Shown here in pieces: positions 7,692 through 24,142 of a DNA stretch of 56,168 bases. The notes beneath the pieces are model-generated. The model was not told where the DNA came from and made no database searches. It saw only the letters and a program-made list of their open reading frames with translations. Each line of letters starts with the position of its first letter. The first letter of the stretch is position 1. The stretch spans positions 1 through 56,168 of the forward strand of contig JASHNW010000072.1 of the NCBI GenBank assembly GCA_030041435.1. Direction: 5' to 3'. The DNA comes from Acidobacteriaceae bacterium (GTDB lineage: Bacteria; Acidobacteriota; Terriglobia; Terriglobales; Acidobacteriaceae). Position numbers and translations under genes: made by a program.

Positions 7692-7776
7692 AACAAGTTG
7701 TGAGGCGCGGGGCACGAAGCTTTCAGCGCGGAGGCGCCGCTGCGCGGTGGTGGGTGATGCCGGGACGCGCTGCGGA

Positions 7777-9135
7777 CTACGCCGAATACAGATTCGTTTG
7801 CAGAAACTCATTGCGGAATTTGCCGTCAGGATCGTAGCGCGCGGCGAGGGTGCGGAAGTCGGCCAGGCGCGGGTACTGGCGGTCGAGCAGGGGGCCGGGG
7901 ATGGTGAAGAGCTTGGCCCAGTGCGGGCGCGGTCCAAAGGGCGCAAGTTGGGCTTCGATTGCGGGGAGGATCTGGCGGACGGCGGGCCACTCGGGCTTCC
8001 AGGTGAAGTGGATGGCGAGGGAGAGGCGCTGGTGGGCCATGCTCATCCAAAGGTCGTCGGCGGCGATAGTGCGCAGCTCGGTGACGAAGAGGTGGGGCGT
8101 GATGCGGTCGCGGAGGGTCTCGATGGCGCGGATGGCCTCGTAGCCGCGATCGAGGGGGACAAAGTATTCGGTCTGCAGCTCACGCCCACTCGACGGCGTG
8201 AAGTTCATGCGGAAGTGGGGCAGGCGCTCGTACCACGGGCCGGGAACGCCCAGCTGCTCGGTGCAGGCGTCGGCGGGATGGCCGGTGATGGGGTGCATCT
8301 TCACGGTGGCGCGGCGCGCGCCGTAGAAGTCTGCGCCCAGAGCCGGCGCGGAGCGATCCGGTTCGCTGAAGTCGGTGCGGCGCTTGATCCAGACCTGCGT
8401 GGCGCGGCTTTGCTGCCAGTCGGTGAAGAGGCTGACGCTGTATCCGCTCGAAAAGATGTCGGTGAGATGATGCTCAAGCTGGGCGAAGGGCAGATCGAGA
8501 TAGACGGTTTGCGCGACCTCGTAGGTGGGCTGCATGTCGAGGGTGGTGCGGGTGAGAACGCCGAGCGCGCCCAGATGGACGGCGGCTCCGGCAAAGACGT
8601 CGGGGTGATCGGCACGGGAGAGGCGGACGAGTTCACCGTTGGCGGCCACGAATTCGAACGCGGAGACGGCGGTGGTGAGGTTGCCGTTGTGGATGCCGGA
8701 GCCGTGCGTGGCGGTGGCGATGGCTCCGGCGACGGAGATGTGCGGGAGGGAGGCGAGATTGTGCAGGGCGAATCCCCTGGCGTCGATGACCGGGGCGAGA
8801 TCGCCATAACGAACGCCAGCACCGACGGTAACGGTGCGGGCGGCGGAGTCGATTTCGATGGATTTGAGCGCAGAGGGGGCGAGCTGATTGTCGACGCTGT
8901 CGGCGATGCTGTTGAAGGAGTGCCGCGAGCCGAGCGCGCGCAGATGGCGAAGGTCGCGGACCTCAGACTGCACTTCGCCCGCGGTGCGCGGCTCGAGCAG
9001 GTTGGGCGCGGAGTAGGTGTAATTCCCGGCCCAGTTGGTGCGCGGGGCCGAAGCGGCCTGGGCGTGCAGGAAGCGGGAGAGCATACTGCCGGCTATGGTA
9101 ACGCCCGATGCTTTGAGAAATGCACGCTTGTCCAT
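7777..9135 (-). CDS. Exported FAD-dependent alditol / arabinono-1,4-lactone oxidase-like protein
   Basis: A 452-residue member of the vanillyl-alcohol-oxidase/PCMH flavoprotein group. It has an N-terminal export signal ([17 protein letters not shown]...AQA), with KR before FLKASG resembling a weak Tat motif. [12 protein letters not shown] at 69-80 is the FAD-binding segment, where H72 matches the covalently flavinylated His of alditol oxidase. [17 protein letters not shown] follows. The C-terminal HWAKLF matches the conserved HWGK of the ALO group. Likely substrates are sugar alcohols or aldonolactones, with oxygen or another acceptor; the sequence does not decide. It lies 163 nt upstream of pdxS on the same strand. 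Confidence 0.85.
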
Positions 9136-9207
9136 GGCTCGTCTCCGCGCGGCGGATACGCTCTGCCTGTATAGGCTGCGCCATGGGTTGCTGGCAAGCC
9201 CGCAGGC

Positions 9208-9687
9208 TCAGCTGGTGGTGGAGTTCGATGCGGTCTTGCGGAGAAAACCGGGGTCGACGGCGACGAAGAGAGCTTTGGCGGTGGCGAGGATGTGGCCAGA
9301 CGCGTCGGCGATCCGGGCTTCGCAGTGGTGAGCTCGTCCGTGGGCGCTGACGTGGTGTGCGGTGAGGGTAAGCGGCGCGCCGAGGGGGACGGGGCGGAGG
9401 TAGTGGACTTCCATGTGGCGGGTCATGGCGACGACGCCTCGGGCGCGATTCGCCTTGCTCATGGCTTCGTCGAGGAGGGTGGCGATGATGCCTCCGTGGG
9501 CGTGGTCGGGGGGTCCGGAGAAGCGGCGCGCGAGGCGGGTGTGACAGACAATGGCGCCGTCGTCGGCGAGGAAGAATTTGAGGCGCAGGCCGGAGGGGTT
9601 TTCGAGGCCGCAGCCGAAGCAGTGGTTGAGGGCGCCGTGGGCGAGCGGGATAAGCGCAGGTTCCTTGTGTGGGTTGTGGGCCGGCAT
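9208..9687 (-). CDS. PaaI-type hotdog thioesterase
   Basis: A 159-residue hotdog-fold protein, probably an acyl-CoA thioesterase. Visible features are CFGCGLENPSGLRLKF, then GPPDHAHGGIIATLLDEAMS, where HGGIIATLLDEAMS is the classic PaaI/YiiD active-site helix. RHMEVHYLRPVPLGAPL is the central strand. The start at ATG 9687 (MPAHNPHKE) was preferred. A GTG at 9720 would add 11 residues, and neither has a clear Shine-Dalgarno. The gene is free-standing between the oxidase-like gene and the methyltransferase-like gene. The CFGCG motif is common in this subfamily, and the substrate cannot be predicted. Confidence 0.82.
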   Translation of the reverse strand: MPAHNPHKEPALIPLAHGALNHCFGCGLENPSGLRLKFFLADDGAIVCHTRLARRFSGPPDHAHGGIIATLLDEAMSKANRARGVVAMTRHMEVHYLRPVPLGAPLTLTAHHVSAHGRAHHCEARIADASGHILATAKALFVAVDPGFLRKTASNSTTS

Positions 9688-9759
9688 AGGTGTGGTTTCA
9701 GAGTACCCGGGTTTTGACACTCGGGCGGGACGGTCAGCACACGGGGATAAGGAGGCGGT

Positions 9760-10350
9760 TCAGAGAATGAACGGAACGAGGGCGGCGACGCGGCGGGAAT
9801 AGGCAGCGTAGGCGTCGCCGAACTGACCGCGCATCCAGTGTTCTTCCATGCGCAGCTTGTACCAGAGAGCGGCAAAGACCAGGAGGAAGGCGATGGGGCC
9901 GCGGATCTGGTCGAGGGCGAGGGCCGTGCCGAGGAAGCCGGTGAGGATGCCGGTGTAAATGGGGTGGCGCACGAGAGCATACGGGCCGCTGGTGATGAGC
10001 TGATGATCCTGCTTGATGGTGACGGAGCGGCTCCAGTTGGCGCCGAGATCATGGCGCGCCCAGATGGCGAAGAGCAGGCCGGCGGCGGTGATGGCCGCGC
10101 CGAGCCAGAACATCCAGAGGCTGTAGGGCGCGATTGGCCGGTAGAGCCACGGCAGCGGAATGTGCGGCAGAGAGAGCAGGGCGATGGCAATGAGGAAGAC
10201 GACAGAGCGGACGATGCGCGACCCAGCGGACTCGAAGCGCGTCGTCATCTTAGTGTTCGCGGCTTTGATCTGCCAATAGAGCAGGAAGCCGATCCACAGA
10301 GCGGGAAAGATGGATTCGTAGAACCAGAGCATATTGTTTTCCAGCTGCAT
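9760..10350 (-). CDS. Isoprenylcysteine carboxyl methyltransferase (ICMT)-family membrane protein
   Basis: A 196-residue integral membrane protein with about five hydrophobic helices. The family signature LITSGPYALVRHPIYTG lies near residues 130-146, and the C-terminal RMEEHWMRGQFGDAYAAYSRRV is the matching PEMT/ICMT tail. Family members use SAM at the membrane; bacterial substrates are largely unknown. The start was set at ATG 10350 (MQLENNMLWFYES), ten bases after the HpnK stop. ATG 10332 is an alternative. The frame continues upstream through the hpnK region only as an overprinted artefact. Cotranscription with hpnK is likely. Confidence 0.83.
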   Translation of the reverse strand: MQLENNMLWFYESIFPALWIGFLLYWQIKAANTKMTTRFESAGSRIVRSVVFLIAIALLSLPHIPLPWLYRPIAPYSLWMFWLGAAITAAGLLFAIWARHDLGANWSRSVTIKQDHQLITSGPYALVRHPIYTGILTGFLGTALALDQIRGPIAFLLVFAALWYKLRMEEHWMRGQFGDAYAAYSRRVAALVPFIL

Positions 10351-10360
10351 CAGGAGAGTA

Positions 10361-11248
10361 CTACGAGGGCGGGGCGACTCTGGTTCCGAGATCGCGCCAG
10401 GAGGCGAGTGGCGAGACCCTGGGGATGAGCTTGAGGAGGGCCGCATGTTCTTCGGCGCGGGAGGCGCGGAGGCGAGTGCGGACGCGGTCAAGGTGCTCGT
10501 CGAGGTAGCCTGGGTGGCAGACCAGTTCCCAGATGCCGCCAGGCACGGCGCCGAGCAGAGGCAGGAGGGTGGACTCGACGTTGACAGTCCCGGTGGCGAG
10601 GATGCCGAGCGTGCCGTCGGGAGTGGCAAGACCGGCGGCGCGCACCTGGAGGCGGAAAGTGCGGCGGTACGAACCCAGCGCGACGATCTGCAGGCGGCGG
10701 AGGCGGCTGGCGCCCGTGGTGCTGCGCAGAGCCCAGGCCGGTTCAAAGGGATTGCGAATGGCGGGGACGCCGCAGGCGCGCGCGGCGCGGAGCAGCGGAC
10801 GCAACACGCGCGGGAACATGTGCGTGTGCTTGTGTGTGTCGACGTGGGAGACACGGAGGCCGGCGGCCTGCAGGCGACGGATTTGCGCGGCAGCTTCGGC
10901 TTCGATTTCGGAGGCGCGGATGCGGCCGAGGTGGAGATCGGCGGCGAAGCGGCCGAGTGTGGGCCGCAGGGAGTGGCCGTCTGGGCAGAGGGAGGGGATC
11001 TGCGCGGCCGGCAGCGCGGGGGCGCCGTCGACGAGAAGGACGTGGCAGCCGACTTCGAGGGTGGGGTTTGATTTGGCAACGGCTACGGCGTCTTCGAAGA
11101 ATGCGCCTGTGGCCATGAGAGTGGCGGAGGTGAGCACGCGGGCCTGGTGCAGCTCGGCGACGGAGCGGTTCACGCCAGGGGTGAGGCCGAAGTCGTCGGC
11201 ATTGACGAGGAGGGGCACGACAGACAGGGTACAGGGTACGGGACGCAT
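10361..11248 (-). CDS. hpnK: YdjC/ChbG-family carbohydrate deacetylase, HpnK-like
   Basis: A 295-residue polysaccharide-deacetylase-like protein. The metal and catalytic motifs are VNADDFGLTPGVN (residues 15-27), HVDTHKHTHMFPRVL (around 134-148) and WELVCHPGY near 240. Members remove acetyl groups from sugars: ChbG acts on diacetylchitobiose, and HpnK is tied to hopanoid glycolipid loci. No other hopanoid genes are in the window, so the HpnK label is by resemblance only. The start is ATG 11248; VVPLLVNADDFG starts at residue 10, so a shorter start is possible. It is followed ten bases later by the ICMT-like gene. Confidence 0.8.
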   Translation of the reverse strand: MRPVPCTLSVVPLLVNADDFGLTPGVNRSVAELHQARVLTSATLMATGAFFEDAVAVAKSNPTLEVGCHVLLVDGAPALPAAQIPSLCPDGHSLRPTLGRFAADLHLGRIRASEIEAEAAAQIRRLQAAGLRVSHVDTHKHTHMFPRVLRPLLRAARACGVPAIRNPFEPAWALRSTTGASRLRRLQIVALGSYRRTFRLQVRAAGLATPDGTLGILATGTVNVESTLLPLLGAVPGGIWELVCHPGYLDEHLDRVRTRLRASRAEEHAALLKLIPRVSPLASWRDLGTRVAPPS

Positions 11249-11251
11249 GGC

Positions 11252-11309
11252 GCAGGGAAGAAGCGGTCAGTTTAAAAATGGCCAGCGGAACGTCGGTCAG
11301 CGAAAAACC
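11252..11309. repeat. Intergenic GGTCAG repeat array
   Basis: It contains AGAAGCGGTCAG, AATGGCCAGCGGAA and CGTCGGTCAGCGAAAAACC. These belong to the same iterated family as the arrays near 49.5 kb and 52.3 kb. It fills most of the 76-nt gap between hpnK and the DUF4254 gene. Confidence 0.6.
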
Positions 11310-11324
11310 ATTCCATGTGTGGGA

Positions 11325-11936
11325 TCAGGGTTCGCTGCCGTAGATGGCGGGATTGAGTGTGGGATCGTTGTACATCTTGAGCTGGCGGTAGATTTTGAAG
11401 CGGCGCGTGCCGGCGAGGATCTGCTCCCAGAGGCGATCGAGGCAGAGGACGAGGTCGCCGCGCTGTTCGGTGAGGAGCGCGAGGCGTTCGCGGTTGCGCT
11501 CGGCATGGCCGGCGGGGGCGCCGGTGCGGTGGATCTCTTCCTCGGTATGGAAGATTTTGAGCGAGAGGACGCTGAGGCGGTCAATGATGAGGCCAGGGCT
11601 TTCGGAGTGCAGCTCGGCGGATGGATGGGGCAGGCTGAGGGCGCGCAGGGTATCGAAGAGGAGCACGTCGCACTTTTCGGTGAGGTCGTTGCGGTGCTGG
11701 TTGCAGCGGTCGATGAGGCGCTTGACATCGGCGATTTCGGTGTTGGTGGCGAGGGGTGCGCGGGCGCGGTCTTCGGCATGCCAGAGGTCGAAGTTGGCGC
11801 GGTGCTGGGCGAGAACGGTGTCGAGGAATTCGGATCCGAGGGAGAGGATAGAAAACGGATCGGCGTGCCACTCGGCGGTGGCGCGGTCGTGCAGGGCGGC
11901 GAGGTCGCGCGCCGATAAATGGGGTTCCGCGGACAT
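11325..11936 (-). CDS. DUF4254 domain protein
   Basis: A 203-residue, mostly helical cytoplasmic protein without membrane segments. It carries the family's conserved blocks: FDLWHAEDRAR, LIDRCNQHRNDLTEKCD and SPGLIIDRLSVLSLKIFHTE. DUF4254 proteins are often found near lipopolysaccharide or glycosyltransferase loci, but their activity is unknown. The start is taken at ATG 11936 (MSAEPHLSARDL). The frame remains open to a TTG at 11996, but that would overlap the divergent ATP-grasp start. The 59-nt divergent gap to the next gene must hold both promoters. Confidence 0.8.
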   Translation of the reverse strand: MSAEPHLSARDLAALHDRATAEWHADPFSILSLGSEFLDTVLAQHRANFDLWHAEDRARAPLATNTEIADVKRLIDRCNQHRNDLTEKCDVLLFDTLRALSLPHPSAELHSESPGLIIDRLSVLSLKIFHTEEEIHRTGAPAGHAERNRERLALLTEQRGDLVLCLDRLWEQILAGTRRFKIYRQLKMYNDPTLNPAIYGSEP

Positions 11937-15563: not shown

Positions 15564-15639
15564 TGGTGAGCCCGCTGGGATTCGAACCCAGGACCCACGC
15601 CTTAAAAGGGCGTTGCTCTACCAACTGAGCTACGAGCTC
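15564..15639 (-). tRNA. tRNA-Lys (anticodon TTT)
   Basis: A 76-nt cloverleaf on the minus strand. The acceptor stem GAGCTCG pairs with CGGGCTC. The D-arm is GCTC-AGTTGGTAGA-GC, the anticodon stem ACGCC/GGCGT with loop CTTTTAA, and the T-arm CTGGG-TTCGAAT-CCCAG. Discriminator A and an encoded CCA complete the 3' end. All stems pair, with one T-G wobble in the acceptor. Confidence 0.97.
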
Positions 15640-15843: not shown

Positions 15844-17784
15844 GTGGCTCGTTGTTTCCGAGCATTGTTTTTAGCCATTGCGTTGTGCGCCTGGGTTCCG
15901 GCCTTCGGCGGGGCAAAGTGGACGCAGCCAACACCCGAAGAACTGAAGATGACGTCGGATCCGGAAGCGCCGGGGGCGGCGGCCGTGTATCTGTATCTTG
16001 AGCAGACGGCCGACGACACCAGGCACGAACGCACGTACTACGCACGCATCAAGGTGCTGACCGAAGACGGAAGGGCATACGGCGATGTAACGATGCCTTT
16101 CTGGAAACGGCAGGAGACGATTCGCAGCATCGAAGGACGCACGATTCACACTGACGGAACAGTGATTCCTTTCACCGGCAAGCCGTGGCAGAAGGAACTG
16201 GTGAAGAGCGGAGGCGTCCGGATCATGGAAAAGGGGTTCTCGTTGCCCGATGTGCAGGTGGGCAGCATCCTTGAGTATCGGTACCGGACGGTCTATAGCG
16301 ACTGGTGGCCGCCGAAGTGGTACCTGCAGCAAGACGTATTCGTTCACGAGGCGCATTACCATTTCATGCCCGGCGGGGGAAGCAACGTCTTCGCAACGCG
16401 ATTCCTGCCGCAGAACGCGCAGATCAACGAGAAGCACGGGTGGGATCTGCATGTCACCAATATTCCGCCGCAGGTGGAGGAGGACGATTCGCCGCCGCTG
16501 CACAGCCTGGGATACCGTGTGCTGTTCTATTACCTCGGCCCTAACCTCACCTCCCCAGGCCAGTACTGGGCTTCGCAAGGTGGGGGATGGAGCTTTAGCG
16601 TCGACGAGTTTGCCGCTGCCGCCAAGTTGAAGAGCGTGGTGGCGCAGATCGTTGCGCCAGGCGACAGCGACGAGCAGAAGGTCGAGAAGATCTACGCGGC
16701 GGTGATGAAGCTGGAGAACACCACCTTCACGCGTGAGCACACGGCGCAGGAAGACAACGCCCGGAACGTGAGGGAAAGCAACGCCGCGGATGTCTGGACG
16801 CAGCAGCGCGGCAACCGGCAGCAGATTACGCTGCTGTTTCTTGGCCTTGTGCGCGCCGCCGGGCTGACGGCCTGTGCGATGCAGGTGACCAGCCGCGACG
16901 AAAACGTGTTTATGCCAAAGGAGGCGGACTGGGACCAGCTGGACGACCTGATTGCCATTGTGAATGTGGATGGCGAGGAGCAGTTCTTCGATCCGGGAGA
17001 GCGGTATTGCGAGTTCGGCAAGCTGCACTGGAAGCACACATGGACCGGAGGCGTGCGGCAGACAGCTCACAGCGTCGAACTGGGAGCCACTCCGTTTCCC
17101 GCGTACCAGGATACGGCGGTCACGCGCAGCGCGGATCTGGCGATGGACGCGGAGGGACAAGTGCGTGGGAGCATCCGCATCGAGATGACGGGCAACATGG
17201 CGCTGCGCTGGCGGCAGGAAGCATTGCTCACAGACGAGGAACAGGCGAAGAAGGAATTCGGCGATGAATTGCAGGCGGAGATGCCGGCTGGGACGACCGT
17301 GAAGATGCAGGGATTCACAGCGTTGCAGGACTACACGCATCCGCTGGTGGCAACGCTGGCAGTGAGCGGGACCATGGGCACGAAAACGGGGAAGCGGCTC
17401 TTTCTGCCGGGAACGTTCTTCGAGGCGCAGGCGAAACCGCGATTCGCGACGGCGACGCGGGTGAATCCGGTGTATCTCCCTTACACCTATGTGGTACGGG
17501 ACGACGTGAAGATGAAGCTGCCGCCGAATGCATCGGCGGAAATTGTGCCGACCAACGCGGAGATCCCTTACGCTGAGCATGCCGATTTCTCGGCGAACTA
17601 CCGGGTTGCAGGGAATATCTATCAATGTAGCCGAATGGAGCTCGTGAGCAAGGTTCTCTATCCGACGAAGGATTACCCGGACCTGCGCGATTTTTTCCAG
17701 AAGATGAACGCACAGGATCAGGCGCAGCTGGTGCTGAAGATGGCGCCCGCGACAGCGACGGCGAGCGTGGGTAAGAAAGAATAA
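15844..17784 (+). CDS. Exported DUF3857 / transglutaminase-fold protein, catalytic Cys and His lost (paralogue 1)
   Basis: A 646-residue protein with a signal peptide (MARCFRALFLAIALCAWVPAFGGA), then KWTQPTPEELKMTSDP, a DUF3857 domain (about 60-250), a transglutaminase-like core (about 260-400) and a C-terminal beta-rich domain. At the catalytic Cys position (GDCKD in active members) it has R325 (RGNRQQITLLF), and at the His position D368. Only D383 of FFDPGERYCEFG remains. An invariant C389 follows in all three dead-site paralogues. GTG 15844 is chosen because GAGGGG lies six bases upstream and the signal peptide starts there. The open frame back to 15703 carries no sensible N-terminus. A non-enzymatic binding role in the periplasm or outer surface is inferred. 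Confidence 0.85.
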   Translation: MARCFRALFLAIALCAWVPAFGGAKWTQPTPEELKMTSDPEAPGAAAVYLYLEQTADDTRHERTYYARIKVLTEDGRAYGDVTMPFWKRQETIRSIEGRTIHTDGTVIPFTGKPWQKELVKSGGVRIMEKGFSLPDVQVGSILEYRYRTVYSDWWPPKWYLQQDVFVHEAHYHFMPGGGSNVFATRFLPQNAQINEKHGWDLHVTNIPPQVEEDDSPPLHSLGYRVLFYYLGPNLTSPGQYWASQGGGWSFSVDEFAAAAKLKSVVAQIVAPGDSDEQKVEKIYAAVMKLENTTFTREHTAQEDNARNVRESNAADVWTQQRGNRQQITLLFLGLVRAAGLTACAMQVTSRDENVFMPKEADWDQLDDLIAIVNVDGEEQFFDPGERYCEFGKLHWKHTWTGGVRQTAHSVELGATPFPAYQDTAVTRSADLAMDAEGQVRGSIRIEMTGNMALRWRQEALLTDEEQAKKEFGDELQAEMPAGTTVKMQGFTALQDYTHPLVATLAVSGTMGTKTGKRLFLPGTFFEAQAKPRFATATRVNPVYLPYTYVVRDDVKMKLPPNASAEIVPTNAEIPYAEHADFSANYRVAGNIYQCSRMELVSKVLYPTKDYPDLRDFFQKMNAQDQAQLVLKMAPATATASVGKKE

Positions 17785-17792
17785 GTGCAGCC

Positions 17793-17836
17793 GGGCAAAG
17801 TTGCCCACTGCGCGGGATAAGAATTTGCTTGCGCAG
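17793..17836. repeat. Two adjacent stem-loops between paralogues 1 and 2
   Basis: GGGCAA-AG-TTGCCC (17793-17806) is followed by CTGCGC (17808-17813) facing GCGCAG (17831-17836) across a 17-nt loop. They may reduce read-through or stabilise the upstream mRNA end. No T-run follows. Confidence 0.4.
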
Positions 17837-17850
17837 GAGGACACGAGGCC

Positions 17851-17870
17851 GTAAAAAAAGTGCACACTCC
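17851..17870 (+). promoter_or_regulatory. Shared upstream element, copy 2
   Basis: GTAAAAAAAGTGCACACTCC lies 89 nt before the TTG start of the second DUF3857 gene. It is the most divergent copy of GTAMAAAGGWGCCACYC but keeps the spacing. Confidence 0.35.
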
Positions 17871-17939
17871 CGTACGGATGATATCTGTGCATTTCGCCTT
17901 GGCTGCGGGAGAGTTCTTTGTTTGTGCGAGGCTCCTGCT

Positions 17940-19934
17940 TTGGAATCCAATGCTCGTCATATCTTCCTGTTGTTGATTACCTTTCTGGGTTTGGTTGTGG
18001 CAGTTCCGGTGTATGCCGGCACAAACTGGACCGAACCTACACCCGAAGAGCTGAAGATGACCTCGGATCCGGCCGCGCCGAATGCGCCGGCGGTGTACTT
18101 ATTTCGCGAAGAGACGGTGGACGACAAGCTCCACTATCACCAGCTCTATGCGCGGATCAAGATCCTGACGGAAAAGGGAAAAGAGGAATACAGCGACATC
18201 GAGATTCCCTACGAAGCGGGGATGTCGAATATCAGGGCCATAGAGGGGCGAACGATTCATGCGGACGGAACGGTGATCCCGTTCACGGGCAAACCGTATG
18301 ACAAGGTGCTGGAGAAGTCCGGCGACATCAGGATCAATGAAAAGGCCTTCAGCATGCCGGATGTGCAGGTGGGGAGCATCGTGGAATACCGCTGGGAGCT
18401 TCAGTACGACGACCTCTATTACATGCCGCCGCGCTGGTATATCCAGCAGCCGATCTATGTGCACAAGGCGCACTACCATTTTGTGGCGGCGGACATAAGC
18501 CTCCATCCAATAATGGTGACGGACGCACTGGGCAAGGAGAATCCGGCGAACCGGCTGCTGTATTATCAGGTGCTTCCACCGGGGGCAGCGGCGAGGGAGG
18601 GGATGGATGGTTTTGACCTTACGGTCAGCAACATTCCGGCGCTGACGGACGAAGATTACTCGCCGCCGCTGGACAGTTTTTCGTACCGGCTGTTGTTCTA
18701 CTACTCGCCGGCATTTACGGGTGAGGAGTTCTGGAAACAGGAAGCCAAGATCTGGTCGAAGGATGTGGACCGGTTCGCGAATCCGTCGGACAAGATACGG
18801 CAGGCAGTGGCGCAGATTGTGGCGCCGGGCGACACGGACGACCAGAAGCTGAGGAAGATCTATGCCGCGACGATCGGAATCGAGAACACACGCTTTACCC
18901 GGGAACACTCGGCAGCGGAAAACAACGCCGAAGGGCTGCGGGTGAAGACGGCGGCGGATATCTGGGAACAGAAGCGGGGGAACGACGACGAGATCACGCG
19001 GCTGTTTATTTCGATGGCGCGGGCAGCGGGCATGAAAGCGTACGCGATGATCGTGACGGAACGTAATCGGAACCTGCTGAACATCGGATATCTGTACTGG
19101 GGGCAGCTGGAAGACGAGATCGCGATCGTGCAGGTTGGCGGCAAGGAGGTCTTCTTCGATCCGGGGCAGCGGTACTGCGAGTACGGCAAGCTGCACTGGA
19201 TGCACACGCAGATGATCGGGGTGAGGCAGTCTGATCATGGGCCGGTGCTTGCCAAGGCCGCGGACGCGACATACCAGGACAATGTGACGCAGCGCTCGGC
19301 GGATTTACAGTTGAGCGCGGATGGAACGGTGAAGGGAGTAGTGAGAGTCTCGATGTCGGGCGAGGAGGCGCTGCGCTGGAGACAAGAGGCGCTGCGAAGC
19401 GATGAGAGGGCGACGAAGAAGGCGTTCGAGGATGTGCTGCAGGAGGAGGTTCCGGCCGGCGTGCAGGTGAAAGTGAATCATTTTATCGGCCTGACGGACA
19501 TCTCCTCTGTGCTGATGGCGGTAGTGGATGTGAGCGGCAATATGGGAACGGCAACGGGGAAGCGCGTCTTTGTGCCATCCGCGTTTTTCGAAGCGGGCGC
19601 AAAGCCGTTGTTTGCGGCAGAGAAGCGGGAGAGCCCGGTGGACCTGCGCTATCCCGCTATGGTGCACGACGAGGTCACGGTGACACTGGAGCCGGGGTTG
19701 TCGGTGGAGAGTGTCCCGGCGGATGCGGTTGTGCCGTTTCTGCCCAACGCCGAATACAAGAGTAAATACGGCCACACGGCGAATATCTATCAGATGGATC
19801 GGGTGGCGGCGCTGGGCAATACGATTTACAAAACTGAGGAGTATCCGCAGCTTCGCGATTATTTTCAGAAGATAAGCGCGCAGGATCAGCAGCAGATCGT
19901 GCTGGACCGGGTGGCTGTGACCGCGAGCCGATAA
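17940..19934 (+). CDS. Exported DUF3857 / transglutaminase-fold protein, catalytic Cys and His lost (paralogue 2)
   Basis: A 664-residue paralogue with the same layout: signal peptide (ESNARHIFLLLITFLGLVVA...YAG), NWTEPTPEELKMTSDP, DUF3857, transglutaminase-like core and C-terminal domain. Where active members have GDCKD it reads RGNDDEITRLF, so the Cys position is D349. The His position is D392 (LEDEIAIV). D407 in FFDPGQRYCEYG is kept. TTG 17940 is the likely start: the hydrophobic segment begins seven residues later and a GCGAGG site lies about eight bases upstream. The 37 residues upstream in frame look non-coding. It sits 155 nt after paralogue 1, with a similar upstream element, so each gene may have its own promoter. 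Confidence 0.85.
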   Translation: MESNARHIFLLLITFLGLVVAVPVYAGTNWTEPTPEELKMTSDPAAPNAPAVYLFREETVDDKLHYHQLYARIKILTEKGKEEYSDIEIPYEAGMSNIRAIEGRTIHADGTVIPFTGKPYDKVLEKSGDIRINEKAFSMPDVQVGSIVEYRWELQYDDLYYMPPRWYIQQPIYVHKAHYHFVAADISLHPIMVTDALGKENPANRLLYYQVLPPGAAAREGMDGFDLTVSNIPALTDEDYSPPLDSFSYRLLFYYSPAFTGEEFWKQEAKIWSKDVDRFANPSDKIRQAVAQIVAPGDTDDQKLRKIYAATIGIENTRFTREHSAAENNAEGLRVKTAADIWEQKRGNDDEITRLFISMARAAGMKAYAMIVTERNRNLLNIGYLYWGQLEDEIAIVQVGGKEVFFDPGQRYCEYGKLHWMHTQMIGVRQSDHGPVLAKAADATYQDNVTQRSADLQLSADGTVKGVVRVSMSGEEALRWRQEALRSDERATKKAFEDVLQEEVPAGVQVKVNHFIGLTDISSVLMAVVDVSGNMGTATGKRVFVPSAFFEAGAKPLFAAEKRESPVDLRYPAMVHDEVTVTLEPGLSVESVPADAVVPFLPNAEYKSKYGHTANIYQMDRVAALGNTIYKTEEYPQLRDYFQKISAQDQQQIVLDRVAVTASR

Positions 19935-20001
19935 CGACGGGCGCGTGATGGCGAGGGATTGCGCAACGCGAGAATTCTCTTGCCTGAGGGCGTGGCGAGG
20001 G

Positions 20002-20019
20002 GTAAAAAGGTGCCACTCC
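20002..20019 (+). promoter_or_regulatory. Shared upstream element, copy 3
   Basis: GTAAAAAGGTGCCACTCC begins 104 nt before the GTG start of the third DUF3857 gene and is a close match to copy 1 (GTACAAAGGAGCCACCC). Confidence 0.45.
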
Positions 20020-20105
20020 AGCCAGCCAGCGATACCTGCCACCATGCCAGGCGTGAGTGCGGGACTACGGGTGGCTGATTGGTTGAGTTCCAGGGGGATT
20101 CTGCT

Positions 20106-22130
20106 GTGACGCGTTCTATTGGTTGTGACGTCATTTTTCTGTCTTTTGCTTTGGCTTTCTATCTTCCGGCGCGTGGCGCGACGACATGGACGCAGCCGAC
20201 TCCGGAGGAACTGAAGATGACGTCGGATCCGGCGGCGCCGAATGCGCCTGCGGTGTTTCTTAACTACGACGAATATATGGATGTCCCGGGTCACTTCGAC
20301 CGTTATTACGGACGCATCAAGATCCTGACCCAGAAGGGAGTCGTGGAGTTCGGGGATGTGAGAATTCCCTATCCGGCGGGAGTGGTGAACGTGAGGGCTC
20401 TGGAAGGGCGCACGATTCACAGCGACGGAACGGTGATCCCGTTCGCCGGGCAGCCATACGACAAGGAGATTGTGAAGGCGGGCGGCGTGAAGGAGATGGA
20501 GAAGGTGTTCTCGCTGCCGGACGTGCAGGTGGGAAGCATCATCGAGTATCGATTTGAGATTCAGTACGACGACCGATGGATCTTCTGGCCGGAATGGTAC
20601 CTGCAGCAGCCGATCTTTGTTCACGAGGCGCACTATCACTTCATTCCGGCGGCGCTCGATGTGAACAGCACGATGGAGATCATGGTCCCCGATCCTCAGG
20701 GGAAGCAGATTCCGGCGACACGTCTTCAGTATGACGCGGCGCTTCCGCCGGGGGCGAAACTCCAGGATTTGCCGAGCGGAATGGATCTGACGGTGAAGGA
20801 TATACCGCCGATTCCCGACGAGCCGGACTCACCGCCGCTGGGCAGTTTTTCGTATCGACTGTTTTACTACTACACGGGAAACTACTCCGCGAAAGAATTC
20901 TGGACGGGTGCGGGGAACGCCTGGTCGAAGTCGGTGGACCACTTTGCGGAGCCTTCGGACGCGATCCGGCAGGCGGTGGGGCAGATTGTCTCTCCGGGAG
21001 ATACAGACGCGCAGAAGCTAGAGAAGATCTATGCGGCGGTCATGACGATCGAAAATACAAGGTATTCGCGGGAGCGCTCGCAGGAAGAGAACAAGGCTGA
21101 AGGCGTGAAGGTGTTGACTGCGGCGGATGTCTGGAGCGAGAAACGGGGAACCCCCAACCAGATCACGCGGCTGTTTATCGCGATGGCGAGGGCAGCGGGA
21201 ATGAACGCGTACGCGATGGCGGTGACGGAGCGCGATAAGAGCGTGCTGAACGCAAATTATCTGAACTGGCACCAGCTGACCGATGAGATTGCGATTGTCG
21301 CCGTGGGTGGGAAAGAGGTCTATTTCGATCCGGGGGAGCGTTACTGCGAATACGGGAAGCTGGCCTGGAAGCACACGCAAGTGCTGGGGATGCGCCAGAC
21401 AGCAAGCGGCACGGAACCGGTGCTGACACCGGCGGCGGAGTACAAGGACAACGAAGAGGATCGCATGGCCGGACTGCAACTGGGGCCGGACGGAAAGTTG
21501 CTGGGAGAGATCAAGATATCGATGACCGGAGCGGAAGCGCTGCGCTGGCGGCAACAGGCCCTCACCAGCGACGAGGAGGCGACGAAGACGGCATTCGATC
21601 GGCATCTTCAGGGGGAGGTTCCGCCTGGAGTGGTAGTGAAGACGCGGCAATTTACCGGACTGACGGACGACACGCAGCCGCTGGTGGCCATTGTGGACGT
21701 GAGCGGCGGCATGGGTACGGCAGCCGGAAAGAGGGTCATTTTTCCGGGCACGTTTTTCGAGGCGTCCGCGCAGCCGCGGTTCGCAGCGCAGACGCGGGAG
21801 AACCCTGTGGATTTGCGGTATCCGTACCTGATTCGCGACCAGGTGAAGGTGACGCTGGCGCCGGGGCTGACAGTGACGAGCGTGCCGAACAGCGCGCAGA
21901 TCCCGTTTCCGCAGAACGCGGAGTACATTGCCAAATACGGCGGTTCGGGCAACACGTATCAGCAGGCGCGGCTGCTGGCGGTGGGCAACACGCTCTATAA
22001 GAAGGAGCAATATCCGGACCTGCGGGACTTTTTCCAGAAGGTGGACGGCCAGGATAAAGGGCAGGTCGTGCTGGACCGGACAGCGGCAGGCTCGGCGCAG
22101 GCGGGAACGGCGGCTGGAGCGAACCAATGA
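20106..22130 (+). CDS. Exported DUF3857 / transglutaminase-fold protein, catalytic Cys and His lost (paralogue 3)
   Basis: A 674-residue paralogue. GTG 20106 gives MTRSIGCDVIFLSFALAFYL and cleavage near PARGA; GGGGG lies about eight bases upstream. TWTQPTPEELKMTSDP follows, then DUF3857 and the transglutaminase-like core. The Cys position is P350 (RGTPNQITRLF), the His position is D393 (LTDEIAIV), and D408 survives in YFDPGERYCEYG. It is closest to paralogue 2 by eye (shared TSDPAAPNAPAV, IENTRYSRER, TAADVW blocks). Its stop overlaps the start of the fourth gene by 4 nt, so these two at least are cotranscribed. The third non-ATG start in a row suggests deliberately low translation or simply lineage habit. 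Confidence 0.85.
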   Translation: MTRSIGCDVIFLSFALAFYLPARGATTWTQPTPEELKMTSDPAAPNAPAVFLNYDEYMDVPGHFDRYYGRIKILTQKGVVEFGDVRIPYPAGVVNVRALEGRTIHSDGTVIPFAGQPYDKEIVKAGGVKEMEKVFSLPDVQVGSIIEYRFEIQYDDRWIFWPEWYLQQPIFVHEAHYHFIPAALDVNSTMEIMVPDPQGKQIPATRLQYDAALPPGAKLQDLPSGMDLTVKDIPPIPDEPDSPPLGSFSYRLFYYYTGNYSAKEFWTGAGNAWSKSVDHFAEPSDAIRQAVGQIVSPGDTDAQKLEKIYAAVMTIENTRYSRERSQEENKAEGVKVLTAADVWSEKRGTPNQITRLFIAMARAAGMNAYAMAVTERDKSVLNANYLNWHQLTDEIAIVAVGGKEVYFDPGERYCEYGKLAWKHTQVLGMRQTASGTEPVLTPAAEYKDNEEDRMAGLQLGPDGKLLGEIKISMTGAEALRWRQQALTSDEEATKTAFDRHLQGEVPPGVVVKTRQFTGLTDDTQPLVAIVDVSGGMGTAAGKRVIFPGTFFEASAQPRFAAQTRENPVDLRYPYLIRDQVKVTLAPGLTVTSVPNSAQIPFPQNAEYIAKYGGSGNTYQQARLLAVGNTLYKKEQYPDLRDFFQKVDGQDKGQVVLDRTAAGSAQAGTAAGANQ

Positions 22131-24142
22131 AACGCACAGCGGCCAGCGAACAGCGATCAGCGATCAGAATGCCGGGCGCGGTGAGGAGAATGCGCTGGTG
22201 GGCAGGCGCCTTGCTGGCGCTGGGCTGCGCGGGCGCGGCGCACGCGGGAACTCCGGAGCTCCCGGACTGGGTGACGCAGGCTGCCGCCAGCGCGCCGCTG
22301 CCGGCAGCGTGGCGGGATGCGAAGGCGGTCTATCTGCTGGAGGACACGCTGCTGACGGTGCAGCCGGATGGAAAGGCGGTGGAGAGGTATCGCGCGGTGG
22401 TGAAGATCCTGCGTCCGCAGGGGCGCGACGCCGCGCGGCCGATGGTGTGGTTTTCGAAGGACGAGAAGCTGAACTCGTTTCACGTGTGGAGCATTGGACC
22501 GGACGGGCACCACTACACGATGAAAGACTCCGAGTATGTGGAAGTGGGCGACGAGTCGTGGGGCATGCTGTACGTGGATTACCGGGCGAAGGTCGCGGCG
22601 CCGCCGGGGGCCGATCCGGGCGGGGTGGTGGCCTGGGAATACGAGCAGGATCTGCCATCGTACTTCAGCGAGGACCGCTGGGATTTTCAGCACCGCGAAC
22701 CGGCGCTGCACTCGGTCTACGAGATCGATCTGCCGCCGGGATGGCACCAGTACGCGGTGTGGGCGCGCCACGCCAGCGTGCAACCGACGGAGGTGACGCC
22801 GAACCACTTTCGCTGGGAGATGTCGAACATTGACGGGATCGACCTGACCGATGTGCCGCTGGCGCCGGCGTGGGCCGCGCTGGCGGGGCGCATGACGGTC
22901 CACTTTGCGGCAGACCCGCTGCCCGAGGGAGACGCGCTGTGGGCGAAGATCGGCGACTGGTATTACGGACTGGCGGCGCCGCGGAGCGAGAGCGGAACAG
23001 ACATCGTGAGCGAGGCGCGCAGCATCGCGGGCGATGGCGACTTCATGGCGAAGCTGGAGAAGGTCGCCGATTTTATGCAGCAGCAGATTCGGTATGTGGG
23101 GATCGAAGTGGGGATTGGAGGATGGCAGCCCCACCCGGCGGAGGATGTCTTCCGGAGCCGCTACGGGGACTGCAAGGACAAGGCCACGCTGACGGTGGCG
23201 ATGCTGGATGCCGTTGGGATCCGGGCGGCGTGGGTGAGCCTGGATGACCGGCGCGGGGTGATCGACCCATCGATGCCAACGCTTTTCGGAAACCACATGA
23301 TCGCGGCGATCGAGATTCCGAAGGGGTACGAAGATCCGCGATTGCAGGCGGTGGTGACGACGAAATCGGGGACGCGGTATCTGATCTTCGATCCGACGAA
23401 TCCCTACGTGGCGATCGGACAGATTCCGGAATACGAGCAGGGAAGCTACGCGGTGCTGGCAGCGGGCGCGGACAGCCAGCTGATCCAGCTGCCGATTTTG
23501 AGTCCGAAAGCGGATATCACCGAGCGGACGGCGAAGTTCGAGCTGACGCCGGATGGCACGCTGAAGGGCGACGTGGCGGTGATCCGGAATGGGGCGCGAT
23601 CGGATGACTGGCGTGGGACGCTGGCGATGGACAGCGACAAGGAGCAGCGCCAACTGATCGAAAAATCGCTGCAGCAGGATTTCTCAAGCTTCACGCTGGG
23701 CACAGAGAAGGCGGAGAACATTCGCGACCTGTATAAGCCGCTGGAACTGGATTATTCCGTTACCGCGCCGGTGTATGCGAAGAGCGCGGGCGCGCTGTTG
23801 CTGGTGCGGCCACGGGTGTTGGGCAGCGTGGCGGAAGCACTGGACGACAAGCCGCGCAAATATCCCATCAGCTTCGACGGCGTGGGGACATGGACGGATG
23901 ACTTCGATGTGAAGATTCCGCCGGGCTACACGGTGGACGATCTGCCCGATCCGGTGAATGTAGACGTGGGCTTTGCGACGTATCACAGCCAAGTGAAGGC
24001 GCAGGGCGACACGCTGCACTACCAGCGGGAGTACGTGCTGAAGAAGCTGACCCTGGCGCCGGGCGATTACCCGACGCTGCACAAGCTGGAGTCGGCCATC
24101 ACGACGGACGAGAACAGCGACGCGGTGCTGAAGAAGCAGTAG
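22127..24142 (+). CDS. Exported DUF3857 transglutaminase-like protein with intact Cys-His-Asp triad
   Basis: A 671-residue protein: signal peptide with a long basic n-region, ending near CAGAAHAG (about residue 41), a DUF3857 domain (about 60-270) and a transglutaminase core. The triad is C349 in YGDCKDKATL, H390 in FGNHMIAAIEI and D422 in LIFDPTNPY. It is thus the only apparently active member of the cluster and is quite divergent from the three preceding paralogues (no PTPEELKMTSDP motif). Activity could be transamidation, amide hydrolysis or peptidase-like. ATG 22127 forms an ATGA overlap with the previous gene. The first dozen codons are made of GGCCAGCGA/GATCAGCGA repeats, so a start at 22169 or 22190 is also possible. 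Confidence 0.87.
   Translation: MKRTAASEQRSAIRMPGAVRRMRWWAGALLALGCAGAAHAGTPELPDWVTQAAASAPLPAAWRDAKAVYLLEDTLLTVQPDGKAVERYRAVVKILRPQGRDAARPMVWFSKDEKLNSFHVWSIGPDGHHYTMKDSEYVEVGDESWGMLYVDYRAKVAAPPGADPGGVVAWEYEQDLPSYFSEDRWDFQHREPALHSVYEIDLPPGWHQYAVWARHASVQPTEVTPNHFRWEMSNIDGIDLTDVPLAPAWAALAGRMTVHFAADPLPEGDALWAKIGDWYYGLAAPRSESGTDIVSEARSIAGDGDFMAKLEKVADFMQQQIRYVGIEVGIGGWQPHPAEDVFRSRYGDCKDKATLTVAMLDAVGIRAAWVSLDDRRGVIDPSMPTLFGNHMIAAIEIPKGYEDPRLQAVVTTKSGTRYLIFDPTNPYVAIGQIPEYEQGSYAVLAAGADSQLIQLPILSPKADITERTAKFELTPDGTLKGDVAVIRNGARSDDWRGTLAMDSDKEQRQLIEKSLQQDFSSFTLGTEKAENIRDLYKPLELDYSVTAPVYAKSAGALLLVRPRVLGSVAEALDDKPRKYPISFDGVGTWTDDFDVKIPPGYTVDDLPDPVNVDVGFATYHSQVKAQGDTLHYQREYVLKKLTLAPGDYPTLHKLESAITTDENSDAVLKKQ
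22137..22168. repeat. GATCAGCGA/GGCCAGCGA repeat at the 5' end of the fourth DUF3857 gene
   Basis: AGCGGCCAGCGAACAGCGATC followed by AGCGATCAG iterates the same short unit seen in intergenic arrays, here overlapping the first codons of the reading frame. Confidence 0.5.

Follow-up and report, generated by a model that had tools for sequence, protein, structure and literature searches.

A tandem array of four genes for exported DUF3857/transglutaminase-fold proteins, P1 to P4, lies in a 56,168-nucleotide stretch of contig JASHNW010000072.1 from an Acidobacteriaceae bacterium (assembly GCA_030041435.1). This whole stretch is referred to here as the window. P4 carries the triad of an active member of the transglutaminase superfamily, whereas P1, P2 and P3, in which the Cys and the His are both replaced, do not (Table 1). 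Homologues were classed as dead-type (D), like P1 to P3, or active-type (A), like P4, and were first assigned by profile score. P1 is 52% identical to both P2 and P3, P2 is 59% identical to P3, and P1 and P4 share 19% identity. An earlier note on this DNA had reported four exported paralogues in a row, the substitutions at the Cys and His positions of the first three, the P4 triad and the retained Asp. The four plus-strand open reading frames (ORFs) lie where that note had placed them, and every residue number is exact. The start codons adopted here are those that match its numbering and yield hydrophobic N-termini.

Table 1. Features of the array and its surroundings. Positions refer to the window, except in the last row, which lists homologous loci.
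Feature	Position	Strand	Remarks
P1 (D1), exported DUF3857/transglutaminase-fold protein	15844..17784	+	GTG start, 646 residues; R325 (Cys site), D368 (His site), Asp383 kept, Cys389 in YCEF
P2 (D2), exported DUF3857/transglutaminase-fold protein	17940..19934	+	TTG start, 664 residues; D349 (Cys site), D392 (His site), Asp407 kept, Cys413 in YCEY
P3 (D3), exported DUF3857/transglutaminase-fold protein	20106..22130	+	GTG start, 674 residues; P350 (Cys site), D393 (His site), Asp408 kept, Cys414 in YCEY
P4 (A), exported DUF3857/transglutaminase-fold protein	22127..24142	+	ATG start, 671 residues; complete Cys349-His390-Asp422
ATGA overlap of P3 stop and P4 start	22127..22130	+	would couple P3 and P4 translation
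tRNA-Lys gene (anticodon ttt)	15564..15639	-	just upstream of the array; possible insertion landmark
461-residue ORF	10533..11918	+	precedes an ATP-grasp gene; a Pfam search at E 0.001 gave no match
Loci with upstream bcsB/bcsC	L036-L040, L043, L045, L048, L110-L115, L117, L119, L120, L122, L124, L126-L130, L138	same strand as the D/A pair	

Domain families and predicted fold

All four proteins pass the cut-off of DUF3857 (PF12969; 24.6 bits), with 43.7, 50.8, 41.3 and 71.6 bits for P1 to P4, respectively. For Transglut_core (PF01841; 23 bits), P3 (26.6) and P4 (30.3) score above the cut-off, and P1 (19.4) and P2 (21.7) fall just below it. DUF3858 (PF12970; 27 bits) is matched below its cut-off by P1 (13.3) and P4 (14.5), and P2 and P3 have no match to it at E 1. 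Beyond these families, Pfam at E 1 returned only a sub-threshold DUF553 match, and no NCBIfam family was found for any of the four. None of the four proteins matches a PADLOC family at E 0.001, and an anti-phage defence system was rejected on this ground.

Queries with P4 by itself and with the window's three D proteins gave no match among PDB sequences at E 1; wider profiles recovered 3KD4. AlphaFold2 models built from family alignments are confident, with a predicted local distance difference test (pLDDT) score of 89.6 for P3 and 91.0 for P4. Foldseek ranks 3KD4 first among PDB entries for the P3 model (E 5e-28) and for the P4 model (E 8.8e-30), each at prob 1.00, with template modelling scores by target of 0.66 for P3 (root-mean-square deviation 7.7) and 0.78 for P4 (5.8). 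Both models match 3KD4 over most of the chain despite the sub-threshold DUF3858 scores.

In mature numbering, the catalytic helix starts at the Cys position (residues 309-322 in P4 and 325-338 in P3), the His strand starts at the His position (350-356 and 368-375), and the Asp strand ends at the Asp position (377-381 and 378-382). Judged by the secondary structure of the models and the alignment, the active-site positions of P3 and P4 appear to be equivalent. In these single-chain predictions, a check that the earlier note had proposed, the substituted residues thus fall at matching elements. Mature P3 holds a single Cys, that of the YCE motif, six residues past the kept Asp, so no other Cys of P3 can occupy the active site. 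The single Cys of mature P4 is the catalytic one, and mature P1 has two further Cys (344 and 595), neither of which aligns to the site. A misaligned triad finds no support in the P3 and P4 models or in the 284-protein alignment described below.

Dead-type and active-type lineages

Homologous loci were collected from three sources: the window's own genome together with 60 relatives (61 genomes), named GTDB contigs, the titles of which are all from Acidobacteriota groups, and 396 Acidobacteriota genomes. A D-type match at E 1e-25 was present in 120 of the 396, and the three best candidates per genome were scored. From the top of the ranked list of D matches, 100 regions were picked by hand, with some matches skipped. 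The window, L036-L076 and L107-L206 underlie the 284-protein alignment, the locus orders and the unique-locus counts, with L001 added in the alignment only. Nine ORFs below 130 bits, 15 ORFs shorter than 480 residues and three duplicates were excluded from this alignment. L006-L035 served only in a first homologue set (69 D, 48 A), which partly overlaps the larger one. L077-L106 were left out; all except L098 come from genomes covered by the window or by a longer locus. L001 is the sole other DUF3857 match in the window's own genome (G000, contig C107, 5127-6386); it lies in a 1068-residue open frame with YGDCKDK intact.

Across these Acidobacteriota homologues, the catalytic Cys is present in all 118 A proteins, including that of the lone L001, and in none of the 166 D proteins, a contrast far greater than chance would give. 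The first set divides in the same way (48/48 A and 0/69 D). The D protein at L175 is the only one with a Cys six columns or fewer from the site. The catalytic His is retained by 11 of 166 D and by 118 of 118 A, and the Asp by 127 of 166 D and 117 of 118 A, the remaining A row being gapped. The family alignment therefore bears out the earlier proposal of a dead-site group conserved across Acidobacteriota, at the scale of this phylum sample. Eight of the 11 His-keeping D proteins read ADNE or ADNA at the GDCK position of A, which suggests that D may have lost the nucleophile first, then the His and then the Asp. D genes with His and Asp intact and DNE or DNA for DCK occur at L181, L182 and L184-L187, where they are divergent from the A gene.

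In a FastTree phylogeny built on 498 columns, with the catalytic core left out, D and A part cleanly and none of the 284 proteins is misplaced (support 0.855). Because the core is omitted, this grouping is not a product of the active site, and the tree points to an old split between the D and A lineages. The view of the D proteins as recent dead copies of P4 was rejected on this split. Several residues that D conserves are rarely found in A, namely R45, R77 and E122 in the N-terminal domain and N292, R351 and W396, which are near the old site by sequence (mature P3 numbering). By a simple proxy, a hydrophobic N-terminus resembling a signal peptide is present in 163 of 166 D and 115 of 118 A proteins.

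Over 17 D pairs, the ratio of nonsynonymous to synonymous substitution rates (dN/dS) ranges from 0.05 to 0.34 with a median of 0.134; over 29 A pairs, it ranges from 0.04 to 0.49 with a median of 0.129. The pairs are homologues 80-98.5% identical, some of which share members, and window genes are not among the pairs printed. Purifying selection acts on D as it does on A. With the conservation of the dead group over the phylum sample and its pairing with an active protein, this ratio of about 0.13 upholds the earlier suggestion of selection for a non-transglutaminase role. The loss of catalytic residues from P1 to P3 could instead mark them as functionless, decaying duplicates of P4, a view that has next to nothing left in its favour. 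It is opposed by the equal dN/dS of D and A homologues, the intact frames of P1 to P3, the confident predicted fold of P3 and the tree outside the catalytic core, in which D appears as an old lineage and not as a recent P4 copy.

P1, P2 and P3 were probably distinct before the species of the window and of L039 parted, because each is closest to a different member of the three-D array at L039, in the same order (62% for P1 with the first member, 64% for P2 with the second and 66% for P3 with the third). Equally close relatives of P2 and P3 are also found in loci with one or two D.

The earlier note had further singled out an invariant Cys in the YCE motif and suggested a different chemistry using it. 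This Cys is indeed present in P1, P2 and P3 and in none of the 118 A proteins, but it is not invariant family-wide, as it occurs in 76 of 166 D. Among the 83 closest D proteins, the Cys is found in 68, the Asp in all 83, and the Cys together with a His nine residues downstream in 62. In the other 15, A, T, V, M or N takes its place, which amounts to seven changes by parsimony on the tree, so the Cys is not needed in the family. Several D that lack it still stand beside A (for example, those of L107, L108, L126, L128 and L129). As a property of the family, a new chemistry on this Cys is not supported by these counts. The co-occurrence of the Cys with the His keeps a structural, metal or redox role in the subclade in play, and the residue may be important within its clade. 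That D runs a new chemistry on the Cys and the conserved His is very unlikely. The frequencies among the closest D and the lack of any other Cys in mature P3 speak for it; the replacements, the continued company of A and the minority share over all D speak against it.

Pairing of dead-type and active-type genes

Near-identical loci were merged before counting, which left 138 unique loci, 111 of them away from contig ends. D and A stand together in 118 of the 138 and in 100 of the 111. Dead/active pairs, for which the earlier note had proposed a synteny search, are thus found across Acidobacteriota. The paired loci hold one full-length D (at least 550 residues) in 97 cases, two in 13 and three in eight, and none of the 118 has more than one full-length A. 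Gene order varies among D A, A D, D D A, D D D A, A D D, D D A D and divergent forms, so the adjacency of D and A outlives rearrangement. The three-plus-one array of the window is one instance of a general module of one to three D with one A and is no local oddity. Among the 61 genomes, a strong D and a strong A occur together in 29, neither occurs in 30, and one only in two (Fisher p 4e-15). Strong matches were those at 1e-60 or better for D (30/61) and 1e-88 or better for A (30/61), cut-offs that were set after viewing the lists. In both exceptions, G031 and G035, the gene reaches a contig end.

The explanation that we favour, with belief and doubt about evenly balanced, is that the pseudoenzyme D and the enzyme A form a near-obligate module, with D either binding substrate on behalf of A or activating it. 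The locus would be a conserved two-component envelope module of one intact A (P4) and one to three D pseudoenzymes (P1 to P3). D and A would be exported together and act as a unit, most likely a heteromer. D would retain the cleft and the beta-sandwich domains and serve as a substrate-binding, specificity or activating subunit. The transglutaminase fold family includes peptidases, deamidases and transglutaminases. A would be the putative catalyst, of hydrolysis, deamidation or acyl transfer. The D genes have multiplied and diverged beside a single A, and for this reason the choice of target is best ascribed to D. The explanation draws on the Cys being absent from D and present in A, the D/A split outside the core, the signal-peptide-like N-termini, adjacency through varying gene orders, co-occurrence, purifying selection, the possible stop/start overlap at D-to-A junctions and an intact/dead pair in Persicobacter (below).

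D could also be an inhibitor or chaperone that caps A in the periplasm and holds it off until export or a trigger. An in-frame four-base stop/start overlap (ATGA, GTGA or TTGA) is possible at 31 of 82 D-to-A junctions, as in the window, and at 5 of 59 A-to-D and D-to-D junctions. Where D lies before A with such an overlap, D would be made first, and a partner of the same fold that co-occurs with the enzyme is plausible as a cap. However, A precedes D in 26 inner single-pair loci, and up to three diverged D per A suit specificity better than inhibition. An inhibitory role is therefore rather unlikely, and a specificity role is preferred.

Several observations weigh against the favoured explanation. 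Eleven of the 111 inner unique loci have D without an adjoining A. In six of these, the genome has a D/A pair elsewhere (G068, G228, G312, G362, G393 and G413), and the other five are without explanation. At the looser threshold of 1e-20, the A profile matches 45 of the 61 genomes; the 15 of these without a strong A have weaker matches (1e-20 to 1e-74), with a strong D only in G035. These weaker matches, mostly in open frames of more than 1000 residues, appear to belong to other DUF3857 proteins. Likewise, A-type relatives stand alone on plasmids of Agrobacterium, Caballeronia and Aureibacter. The wider family works without D. The D set is not a random sample either, because it was gathered with D profiles from the top of a ranked list, among the matches listed. 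D and A distances correlate at 0.96 (95 single pairs), which is not taken to prove contact, since vertical descent would produce such a correlation too. Adjacency, co-inheritance and distance correlation would all follow as well from vertical descent or from a shared function without contact. The pairing is observed, and contact and mechanism are what we infer from it.

D and A may never touch, D being a separate surface ligand-binder or structural protein of the same pathway, such as an envelope-polymer binder or an acceptor modified by A. The solo D loci fit this possibility. So do the inactive transglutaminase domains of polymorphic toxins, which were proposed to anchor through peptide binding (PMC3482391). 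Taken alone, however, a role without contact leaves the near-constant adjacency of D to one enzyme type unexplained. It is unlikely, though it keeps appreciable weight. Of the earlier interpretation as a whole, the selected role and the dead/active pairs hold, whereas the new Cys chemistry is not supported as a family property.

Neighbouring genes and related systems

The array is preceded by the tRNA gene of Table 1 and followed, on the minus strand, by genes for a KdpD-type protein and a histidine kinase. A conserved third partner was rejected, as the commonest neighbour family reaches 19 of 142 loci and none is widely shared. At 19 loci (L147, L154, L157, L160-L174 and L178), an upstream gene lies on the opposite strand, and its representative matches DeoC/LacD aldolase (PF01791). 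At 25 loci, the cellulose synthesis gene bcsB or bcsC lies just upstream (within ~1.1 kb) of the pair. The order after the bcs gene is D A among near relatives of the window and A D at other loci.

From this placement on the same strand, the D/A module could be taken to serve cellulose synthesis by modifying or handling the bcs product. Such a role is highly improbable. BcsB has no match in the window's own genome, and tblastn at 1e-10 detected no BcsB or BcsC in the remaining loci, many of which span only ~4 kb upstream. Among 20 longer upstream regions (19 of ~20 kb and one of 3.7 kb), 12 are without BcsB/BcsC. A cellulose link is at most lineage-bound, and a cellulose-only role was rejected because BcsB is absent from the window's own genome.

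An adjacent intact/dead pair also occurs in one member of the Bacteroidota, on a plasmid of Persicobacter sp. JZB09, where, at L207, the gene for an intact protein (7722-9611) precedes one for a dead protein (9604-11571). A plasmid search with P3 gave no match at E 1e-5. Trees with outsiders were built from 45 D and 45 A drawn at random, the four window proteins, L001 and six outsiders. The dead Persicobacter protein groups with Acidobacteriota D when all columns are used (support 0.997) and when the site columns are removed (0.995). In the tree without the whole core, it falls outside D (D alone, support 0.944), which makes a kinship with D probable but not assured.

The best fold match of the P3 and P4 models, 3KD4 (BDI_1141 of Parabacteroides distasonis, titled 'putative protease'), has a DUF3857-transglutaminase fold-DUF3858 architecture. 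Its catalytic helix reads YGTP where A has YGDC, so its site is Cys-less, as in D. The His column is occupied by Thr, where the alignment is weak. Thus, 3KD4 looks like one of the dead kind. Unlike P1 to P4, it is shorter (506 residues), and it is remote from them (13-14% identity). The outsider trees leave its branch without a clear placement relative to D and A.

Compared with the papain-fold enzymes of Transglut_core (PF01841), P4 is alike in its full Cys-His-Asp triad and its score above the Pfam cut-off, whereas P1 to P3 differ in lacking the Cys and the His. Inactive members of this fold are known. Rad4/XPC, EPB42 (band 4.2) and CC2D2A have, like D, kept the fold after catalysis was lost, and Rad4 uses it in DNA binding (PMC10318531). 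The P3 model also has weaker Foldseek matches to Rad4 chains. Unlike D, these proteins are eukaryotic, and the available part of the source describes no adjoining active paralogue for them; it likewise lists peptidases, deamidases and transglutaminases in the fold family (PMC10318531). The inactive domains of polymorphic toxins resemble D more closely, as they are bacterial, lie behind a signal peptide or transmembrane helix and have lost the triad. In contrast to P1 to P4, they are N-terminal with RHS repeats after them (PMC3482391). Pairs of same-superfamily proteins also have a precedent in the metformin hydrolase MetCaCb, in which one subunit alone holds the metal centre and only the pair is active (PMC11271267). 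MetCaCb differs from D/A in belonging to the ureohydrolase superfamily, with unrelated chemistry; for D/A, the evidence consists of genetic linkage, co-occurrence and possible coupling.

The open-licence literature searched yielded no activity for any DUF3857 protein and no title or opening of an abstract that describes the D/A pairing. DUF3857 appeared there in a single paper, solely as a neighbour gene, and PF12969 and BDI_1141 were not mentioned. Inactive transglutaminase-fold proteins and same-fold enzyme/pseudoenzyme pairs are already known; the DUF3857 D/A pairing itself did not turn up in the literature searched.

More broadly, and more doubtfully, D and A may form an ancient exported system common to Acidobacteriota and Bacteroidota, where a single catalytic subunit would be served by an expandable range of pseudo-transglutaminases acting as interchangeable specificity subunits. 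3KD4 would then be such a subunit and not an enzyme. The findings show that many DUF3857-family proteins are not enzymes of the annotated kind and that those sampled form an old lineage of their own, tied to an active partner. They put the 'putative protease' title of 3KD4 in question. They also provide a case, spread across a phylum, of a pseudoenzyme encoded next to an exported enzyme of the same fold, and they give a family of unassigned function a testable role in complex formation and specificity.

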